Shown: positions 8,187-17,480 of the stretch, one piece after another
How the letters are laid out: every line of letters starts with the position of its first letter
How positions within the stretch are numbered: position 1 is the first letter of the stretch
Assembly (NCBI GenBank): GCA_021781475.1
Contig: JAJXWT010000002.1
Location: 1 to 64,000, forward strand
Origin: a bacterium
Lineage (GTDB): Bacteria; Patescibacteriota; Saccharimonadia; Saccharimonadales; Saccharimonadaceae
Reading direction: 5' to 3'
DNA: 64,000 nt
Translations under genes and position numbers: made by a program
The notes under the pieces: generated by a model
Told to the model about the DNA's origin: nothing
Databases searched by the model: none
What the model saw: the letters and a program-made list of their open reading frames with translations, nothing else

Positions 8187-8572
8187 TGGTGGAGCTGCCG
8201 GGTACTGCCCCCGGGTCCGTCAGGTAACCTATCGTCCGTCTACAAGTATAGTCTTACTCGAGCGTTTAACCACAAAATAGAATTAGAGTAAGACAAAGAG
8301 GCCTATCTCGTGGATTTCGGTAAGAGTTAAGCGCGCATGGTCGAAATAGCCATAGGTGCCGAGCCTGCTATATATAACACACTAGCCCATAGCGGGCGTC
8401 CGGTCTAGTGCGATGCTGCATAAATTAAGCAGCAACAGCCTGGAATTGGCGTCCGAAGACGGTATTCCAAGCCTGAGCAACACGATTTGTTGCAATTATT
8501 ATCTGATTACGTCAGAAGTCGGCTTGCAGAACGATCTGTTAAAGTCCCGGCGTCGAAAGCTATATCAGCCCC
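8187..8572 (-). ncRNA. ssrA: tmRNA (transfer-messenger RNA)
   Basis: 5' end GGGGCTGATATAGCTTTCGACGCCGGGAC; 3' end GGACCCGGGGGCAGTACCCGGCAGCTCCACCA; resume codon GCA after TAATT; ORF 8425-8493 encodes ATNRVAQAWNTVFGRQFQAVAA*. Confidence 0.9.
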
Positions 8573-11286: not shown

Positions 11287-11329
11287 GCCAACAAAAAACC
11301 GCGCCTACGTAGCGCGGTTTTTTGTTGGC
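11287..11329. terminator. Bidirectional intrinsic terminator (rplT operon / rnpB)
   Basis: Perfect 18-bp inverted repeat GCCAACAAAAAACCGCGC-ctacgta-GCGCGGTTTTTTGTTGGC. Confidence 0.9.
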
Positions 11330-11676
11330 AGTCTATCGATAAGCCGGGTTCTGTCGTGGATGATCATCTATCTAGCCTATCCGTTGCCGAACAGTTCAAG
11401 CGGGTAGCGATATGCAGACGGATCGCCTTTTTATGCACATCTCCTTGCAGCCGACAGGGTTTACCTCCTTGGCATGTTACCATGCCTCGCTGTGGGCTCT
11501 TACCCCACTCCTTTCACCCTTACCGTCAGTCACCATTGATGGCTTGAGACGGCGGTATCGTTTCTGTGGCACTTTCCCTAGGGTCGCCCCCGGCCGCCGT
11601 TAGCGGCTGTCGTATCCTATGCTGCCCGGACTTTCCTCTTACCTTTTTACGGGCAAGCGATCATCTAATAGACTGC
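11328..11676 (-). ncRNA. rnpB: RNase P RNA (bacterial class A-like)
   Basis: Minus strand GAGGAAAGTCCGGGC ... AGGGAAAGTGCCACAGAAA ... ACAGAACCCGGCTTATCGATAGACTG; P1 pairs CAGTCTAT/ATAGACTG. Confidence 0.93.
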
Positions 11677-14295: not shown

Positions 14296-15171
14296 TCATA
14301 GGTTGTTCAACTTATCGAGAGCGTGAGCAATGTATGTGTACGCACTACCGATATCCAGCCACATTACGTGTTCACCCCGACGGAACCAGGTCATTTGACG
14401 CTTCGCGAGCTGCCAGTCTCGATTAATAAATAGTTCTTTCGCCTGCTCGATGCTCACCACCCCCTTTACGTATTCATGGATAACCCGGTACACATTGGCT
14501 TTCATTGCTTCGCTTTCCCAGCCGTAATGGCGAGCCAGGCGCAGTGCTTCGTCTACGGCACCACCTTGGAAAATTTGTTCAGCGCGTTGGGTAATTCGGT
14601 CATGAAGAGCATGCCGTTCTGTTGCTATTCCTACAACTATTGAGTTTTTATCCGGTACCACCGACTTCTTTAAAGCATAACCGTTTCGGAAGATCGCATT
14701 TACCACATAGCGTTTGTTGTGCTTGTTTTCCGGTATATGAATGTTGTTTTTTACACAATATTCATGAAGCGCCCCTATGTCCATTCCCTCCCACTTTGCG
14801 CGCTCCGACGTAGGTGGTTCCGGCGGAAAATTGTAATTAAAAATCACCGCATCGACATAAAGACCAGTGCCCCCCGCAAGTATGGGCACATGACCCCGCG
14901 CCCGTATTTCGGCAATTTTACAATTTGCATATTGTTGGAAATCGGCCGCTGTAAAACGTTCGCCGGGCTCGACTAAATCAAAGCCCCAGTGCGGTACGTT
15001 CTGCCGCTCATCGACACTGGGTTTGGCAGCACCAATATCTACGCCTTTATAGATTGCGCGAGAATCAGCTGAAATCACTTCGCCGTTGTACTGTTTGGCA
15101 ATCCGTATGGCAAGGTCGGTTTTGCCGCTTGCCGTCGGTCCCACAATTACTATCAGCGGTATGGGTTCCAT
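14296..15171 (-). CDS. miaA: tRNA dimethylallyltransferase
   Basis: IVGPTASGKTDLAIRIAKQYNGEVISADSRAIYKGVDIGAAKP, LAGGTGLYVDA. Confidence 0.95.
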   Translation of the reverse strand: MEPIPLIVIVGPTASGKTDLAIRIAKQYNGEVISADSRAIYKGVDIGAAKPSVDERQNVPHWGFDLVEPGERFTAADFQQYANCKIAEIRARGHVPILAGGTGLYVDAVIFNYNFPPEPPTSERAKWEGMDIGALHEYCVKNNIHIPENKHNKRYVVNAIFRNGYALKKSVVPDKNSIVVGIATERHALHDRITQRAEQIFQGGAVDEALRLARHYGWESEAMKANVYRVIHEYVKGVVSIEQAKELFINRDWQLAKRQMTWFRRGEHVMWLDIGSAYTYIAHALDKLNNL

Positions 15172-15461
15172 CGCTTCTCCTGAAACTCATCGACAGTAAA
15201 ATCTGTACACGTTACCCCTTCTTGCCGTAATGCCATTGCTTGCGCTTCGCGCCCACCATGATAGCCACTGGCAAGGCCACCGTTCCGATTCACCAACCGG
15301 TGCCATGGTAGGTCTATGTCACCAAAGTGCGCAATCCCACCGATAGCCCTGGCAGCCTGCGCCTGTCCCGCAAACGCCGCCAAGTCACCATACGTTGTAA
15401 CCTGGCCAAGCGGCACTTGGCCCATCAGCTTTTCGACTCGTTCGCGAAAGTTGCCGTTCAT
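15153..15461 (-). CDS. Alkyltransferase-like (ATL) protein, MGMT-family DNA-binding domain
   Basis: PLGQVTTYGDLAAFAGQAQAARAIGGIA...PWHRLVNRNGGL: PWHR replaces catalytic PCHR. Confidence 0.88.
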   Translation of the reverse strand: MNGNFRERVEKLMGQVPLGQVTTYGDLAAFAGQAQAARAIGGIAHFGDIDLPWHRLVNRNGGLASGYHGGREAQAMALRQEGVTCTDFTVDEFQEKRWNPYR

Positions 15462-17279: not shown

Positions 17280-17308
17280 AACTTCTCCTTATTATTTATA
17301 AATAAAAA

Positions 17309-17352
17309 CATGCGATTGATAAGTTTAAATCGTTAAACTCACTGATCGCATG
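17309..17352 (-). terminator. Intrinsic terminator in thrS leader
   Basis: Minus CATGCGAT...GTTTAA-cgat-TTAAAC...ATCGCATG followed by TTTTTATTT. Confidence 0.7.
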
Positions 17353-17480
17353 TCTCGGGTCCAGATTGATTGGACGGTTCCACCGGACTTCCCAGCCCCT
17401 TAGGCTAGGCGCTTATTGAAGCAACGTTCTCGCACGGCGCTCCTTCCCGCGGGACTCCAGAGATGGTTGGGCTCTATCGA
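17353..17480 (-). promoter_or_regulatory. T-box-like riboswitch leader of thrS
   Basis: Minus GTC CGG [TGGAACC] GTCCA-atcaatc-TGGAC CCG a GAC: 7-nt T-box bulge between two helices; preceding stem CTAGCC-taag-GGGCTGG; followed by terminator. Confidence 0.7.

Follow-up and report, generated by a model that had tools for sequence, protein, structure and literature searches.

The window, by which we mean the whole stretch of 64,000 nucleotides of DNA analyzed here, carries a threonyl-tRNA synthetase gene (thrS) followed, with a 3-nt gap or an overlap, by genes for an alkyltransferase-like protein and for MiaA. We infer an operon in which thrS and the two genes behind it (14296..15461) are likely to share one transcript. 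Ordinary tmRNA and RNase P RNA genes also lie in the window (8187-8572 and 11324-11676, minus strand).

The features recognized in the thrS leader are collected in Table 1. The first-pass annotation had read this leader as a T-box-like riboswitch in a Patescibacteria-like genome and placed it at 17309-17480. All of the sequence elements that it named were found on the minus strand upstream of thrS, among them the Stem III-like hairpin and an ACC triplet, which lies in CCCAACCAU. The type of genome was also confirmed, the relatives pointing to Saccharibacteria. The element proved to be real but larger than proposed, as the putative -10 box lies at 17495-17490 and the U-run extends to 17304.

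Table 1. Features of the thrS leader and of the genes behind it, in window coordinates.
Feature	Position	Strand	Details
Possible -35 box TTGCAA	17521-17516	minus	spacer long, 20 nt
Putative -10 box CATAAT	17495-17490	minus
Ultrashort Stem I	17485-17452	minus	starts at about 17485; from the alignment of 64 leaders
Stem I basal helix GGAU/GUCC	17485-17482 with 17455-17452	minus
Stem I kink-turn	17478-17477 with 17457-17456	minus	3-nt bulge AUC; tandem G-A/A-G at the positions given
Stem I apical helix AGAG/CUCU	17475-17472 with 17462-17459	minus	4 bp
Specifier loop	17471-17463	minus	CCCAACCAU, 9 nt
Specifier ACC (Thr)	17467-17465	minus	followed by A17464
Pseudoknotted hairpin	17451-17418	minus	in the position of Stem II and IIA/B
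Pseudoknot triplet CGC with loop GCG	17451-17449 with 17433-17431	minus
Pseudoknot hairpin stem	17443-17434 with 17427-17418	minus
Stem III region	17414-17389	minus	purine motif AAGCG 17414-17410, hairpin 17409-17391, AA 17390-17389
Antiterminator	17388-17352	minus	GUC CGG [UGGAACC] GUCCA-AUCAAUC-UGGAC CCG A GAC
A1 helix	17388-17383 with 17358-17352	minus	GUCCGG with CCG.A.GAC
T-box bulge UGGAACC	17382-17376	minus	7 nt, between A1 and A2
A2 helix GUCCA/UGGAC	17375-17371 with 17363-17359	minus
Intrinsic terminator	17356-17304	minus	GAGACAUGCGAU 17356-17345 with AUCGCAUGUUUU 17316-17305
Terminator U-run	17308-17304	minus
Shine-Dalgarno AAGGAG	17290-17285	minus	outside the terminator
thrS, threonyl-tRNA synthetase	17279-15465	minus	TIGR00418, 616 bits, E 9e-185
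Alkyltransferase-like protein gene	15461-15153	minus	PF01035
miaA	15171-14296	minus	PF01715

Using the Rfam T-box model (RF00230), we obtained an alignment that spans the leader end to end (17489-17353, minus strand) with a score of 28.3 bits. The match is the only one in the whole genome (E 6.6e-5), weak in bits and specific in place. It does not reach the curated Rfam cut-off (gathering score 93 bits), and the score is low because the long Stem I of the model is nearly all deleted here; the cut-off is a database threshold of a long-Stem-I model and not a defining molecular feature. The folding energy taken by itself (z +0.76) told us nothing about the aptamer.

A search for relatives of thrS yielded 80 loci, mostly labelled Saccharibacteria or Patescibacteria. 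Three were cut too short upstream to judge, and 65-66 of the 77 usable orthologs contain the element, recognized by GGUGGAAC[C/A] in a leader whose neighbors are the same. The cultured Saccharibacteria strain TM7i (L042) is among those that have it. The alignment comprised 64 thrS leaders including that of the window, and GGUGGAAC was invariant across them. In a few orthologs (L082, L095, L107, L108), the bulge reads UGGAACA and not UGGAACC. Five thrS orthologs lacking a T-box (L043, L050, L064, L074, L078) have a promoter-like box a few nucleotides before the ATG, as if leaderless; a tRNA-Val gene lies just upstream of them, as it does in the window.

Given the alignment, RNAalifold unaided inferred 17 pairs, 14 of them with changes on both sides. 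A hand-written T-box fold showed compensatory changes in 16 of its 19 helix pairs over the 64 leaders, a number reached in none of 500 shuffles, and 91.1% of the cells paired in comparison with a mean of 76.3 after shuffling. Sliding the fold by one to three columns left between 22.5 and 49.3% of the cells paired. Shuffling breaks the relatedness of the sequences while sliding keeps it, and the two controls agree. Changes on both sides were found in all eight pairs of the two Stem I helices, and A2 was compensatory in five of five pairs. The orthologous leaders keep UGGAACC and its flanking helices with compensatory changes, and this conservation, together with the RF00230 match, upholds the T-box reading: neither of the two outcomes named in the first-pass annotation as refuting it occurred.

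Stem I and the specifier, which the first-pass annotation could not place, were resolved by the alignment of the 64 leaders. The specifier is only ever ACC, ACU or ACG, all of them threonine codons, and is followed by a purine (A or G) in all 64. The same loop carries AUC in ileS leaders of the same order and GUC before a valS-like gene. The element has the kink-turn and the apical-loop specifier within an ultrashort Stem I that characterize class II. In 58 of the leaders, a TATAAT-like hexamer with at most one mismatch precedes Stem I by 8-22 nt, mostly at -14 to -9, and transcription would start at or next to Stem I. With the -10 box adjoining it, there is no space for a longer Stem I; a distal Stem I with an elbow-binding IDTM was not found, Stem I being about 34 nt and bounded by the -10 box. 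We rejected a longer upstream Stem I present in the minimum free-energy (MFE) structure (GGGC...GCCC), which uses the specifier loop, is unconserved and would fall in the promoter.

The genome contains tRNA-Thr genes with anticodons CGU and UGU and a tRNA-Thr(GGU) whose anticodon loop is interrupted by ~200 nt of inserted sequence; all of them end in U-CCA. The A of UGGA complements U73 of every tRNA-Thr gene found, and the ileS T-boxes of the same order have UGGU in place of UGGA. The split tRNA-Thr(GGU), the expected ligand (L186, G000:C30, 6266-6549, minus strand), would need splicing before being read; it is intact, with the U-CCA end, in several relatives. Its insert carries a group-I-like AAGAUACAGUC stretch, and an Rfam scan of the insert matched no known intron family. 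Another tRNA with an insert of more than 200 nt in the anticodon region was reported by aragorn in a different genome (L163, G129).

Directly 3' of Stem I, a CGY triplet pairs with RCG in a hairpin loop, giving an H-type pseudoknot. The arms of the hairpin pair at a mean of -8.6 kcal/mol with their own partners and at -4.6 (sd 0.3) when swapped between species. The triplet occurs as CGU/ACG, CGC/GCG, CAU/AUG and UGU/ACA, a covariation that lends modest support to the predicted pseudoknot, and we infer that the pseudoknotted hairpin is an enlarged Stem IIA/B. The pattern of an S-turn Stem II was found in none of the 64 thrS leaders, the pseudoknot strand coming straight after Stem I. An S-turn Stem II has been described as needed where Stem I is truncated (PMC7583486). 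The Stem III of the window matches the RRRxG-Stem III-AA motif (PMC7583486); the hairpin is missing in many of the aligned orthologs. According to structural work (PMC7583486), the amino acid is sensed mainly by a G-U pair at the foot of A2. In the window, the foot pair is G-C, and in the alignment it is G-C in 29 leaders, G-U in 15, U-A in 14 and A-U in 4. With a short Stem I, no S-turn Stem II and no conserved G-U pair, the T-box is smaller here than those reviewed.

The 3' strand of A1 reads CC-GAGAC or CC-GAGGC, and its 5' partner matches, giving GUC/GAC or GCC/GGC. The same GAGAC/GAGGC is also the foot of the terminator, where it pairs into the U-run with all five nucleotides in 62 leaders and with three or four in the remaining two. 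Antiterminator and terminator are therefore mutually exclusive through this conserved segment. The terminator of the window has a folding energy of -23.9 kcal/mol. The U-run terminator of the first-pass annotation is present, although its stem starts at 17356 and not at 17352 and its U-run ends at 17304; the view that terminator and T-box barely overlap fails, as they share five nucleotides (GAGAC). In the MFE structure of the lone leader, A2 stays while the terminator forms, and therefore only A1 switches. We saw no sequestrator over the Shine-Dalgarno sequence in the window leader, which has a free Shine-Dalgarno sequence and a U-run terminator instead.

Under the mechanism that we propose, the transcript would begin at or near the ultrashort Stem I with its kink-turn, and ACC in the apical loop would be offered to the anticodon GGU. 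If the tRNA-Thr is uncharged, its 3' UCCA would pair with UGGA of the bulge and stabilize the antiterminator (A1 and A2), making the 3' strand CCG-A-GAC unavailable to the terminator. With charged tRNA, A1 would not be held, GAGAC would pair with GUUUU at the terminator foot, and transcription would stop before thrS. Judging from sequence and comparison, the thrS leader is very probably a T-box riboswitch through which uncharged tRNA-Thr governs the attenuation of thrS transcription. Sequence and comparison establish the fold, the specifier, the exclusive pairing of GAGAC, the terminator and the tRNA-Thr genes with U73, whereas the binding of tRNA, its discrimination by charging, the start of transcription and its termination are predicted. 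The low bit score, the A2 foot that is mostly not G-U, the lack of an S-turn Stem II and the persistence of A2 in the MFE structure count against this explanation.

Reports of an ultrashort Stem I whose specifier sits in the apical loop mainly concern translational T-boxes (PMC7583486), and the thrS leader could be one of these, resembling the ileS T-boxes of Actinobacteria, with the terminator incidental. We consider this improbable: a strong hairpin and U-run are present in essentially all leaders, the foot of this hairpin is the 3' strand of the antiterminator, and the Shine-Dalgarno sequence of the window lies outside both folds. Alternatively, the element could be a T-box in decay, its fold preserved but its sensing of charging lost, leaving thrS simply attenuated. 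The missing S-turn Stem II and G-U sensor pair and the frequent absence of Stem III would fit such decay, but 64 divergent leaders show sustained compensatory evolution, strict threonine specifiers and an invariant GGUGGAAC, and several orthologs without the element have a clean leaderless promoter and no decayed copy, which makes this explanation highly improbable.

That the leader contains no T-box at all, but a hairpin and terminator arisen by chance or some other kind of regulator (for instance an operator bound by ThrS), has the score below the Rfam cut-off as its sole argument. This reading, to which we give almost no weight, is already refuted by the conservation data, the sole genome match and the shared GAGAC, and the same architecture recurs with fitting specifiers at ileS and at the valS-like gene. 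We retain the transcriptional T-box as the explanation of the thrS leader.

The class II ileS T-boxes of Actinobacteria (Mycobacterium tuberculosis, Nocardia farcinica) share with this T-box the kink-turn and the short Stem I with an apical-loop specifier; both lack an elbow-binding distal Stem I and have a T-box bulge and antiterminator. They differ in that the class II ileS elements read tRNA-Ile, control translation and need the S-turn Stem II, whereas the thrS leader is specified for tRNA-Thr and has an intrinsic terminator and no S-turn. With the class I transcriptional T-boxes (RF00230; Bacillus glyQS, tyrS, thrS), it has in common the UGGNACC bulge, the competition of A1/A2 with the terminator and, in the window, the RRRxG-Stem III-AA motif. 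Unlike them, it has neither a long Stem I nor the conserved G-U in A2, its antiterminator and terminator share a strand of only 5 nt, and its score is far below the Rfam cut-off. The glyQS T-boxes also lack Stem II and have strong codon-anticodon pairing, comparable to the two G-C pairs formed here for ACC, but unlike the thrS leader they have a long, elbow-binding Stem I. For glycine T-boxes, strong codon-anticodon pairing has been argued to lower the need for lateral support (PMC7583486); by analogy, and speculatively, ACC-GGU with its two G-C pairs might need less of it than AUC. The ileS T-boxes of the same order also have an ultrashort Stem I with an apical-loop specifier, and 26 of 27 have a U-run terminator. 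A strict pattern for an S-turn-like motif fits 20 of the 27, in contrast to 0 of 64 thrS leaders.

Matches to RF00230 were found in 65 of 294 genomes of the window's order, none of them over the cut-off, and in 128 of 382 genomes of the phylum, 13 of which exceed it; owing to strict filters, these genome counts are lower bounds. Because of the 13, routine pipelines would already annotate long-Stem-I T-boxes in Patescibacteria, while the curated threshold misses the thrS T-boxes of the window's order. A model built from the thrS leaders studied here had matches in 66 of the 382 phylum genomes, likewise a lower bound, several of the distant matches being ultrashort thrS T-boxes with threonine specifiers. 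Ultrashort T-boxes with AUC and U-run terminators occur before ileS across the order (L003-L031), and one with GUC precedes the valS-like gene (L009). The whole-genome search with RF00230 found no T-box at ileS of the window's own genome.

A 2008 survey placed T-boxes in Firmicutes, Actinobacteria, Chloroflexi, Deinococcus and a few Proteobacteria (PMC2494555), and TBDB looked for class II only in Actinobacteria (PMC7778990). In the open literature, we found no paper that joins the T-box with Saccharibacteria or Patescibacteria, and two open papers containing both T-box and TM7 were unrelated; as the search covered open papers, priority is uncertain.

In present accounts (PMC7583486), a T-box that controls transcription has a long Stem I, which accelerates the capture of tRNA, and an ultrashort Stem I goes with control of translation and an S-turn Stem II. 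The thrS T-boxes break both pairings, making the needs of a minimal T-box directly testable, and they bring tRNA-sensing control of synthetases to Patescibacteria, bacteria of reduced genomes. On balance, we favor the view that they represent a class of minimal T-boxes acting on transcription that is widespread in Patescibacteria. Its members would recognize tRNA-Thr by means of an ultrashort Stem I, with an enlarged pseudoknot replacing the S-turn Stem II, and would read charging without a conserved G-U pair and often without Stem III. If this is true, co-transcriptional tRNA sensing needs neither an elbow-binding Stem I nor an S-turn clamp. T-boxes with a long Stem I were also observed in other Patescibacteria (L197-L226), some of them over the Rfam cut-off; the genes downstream, named by eye from sequence, resemble proS, argS, ileS, argG, trpE and leucine dehydrogenase.
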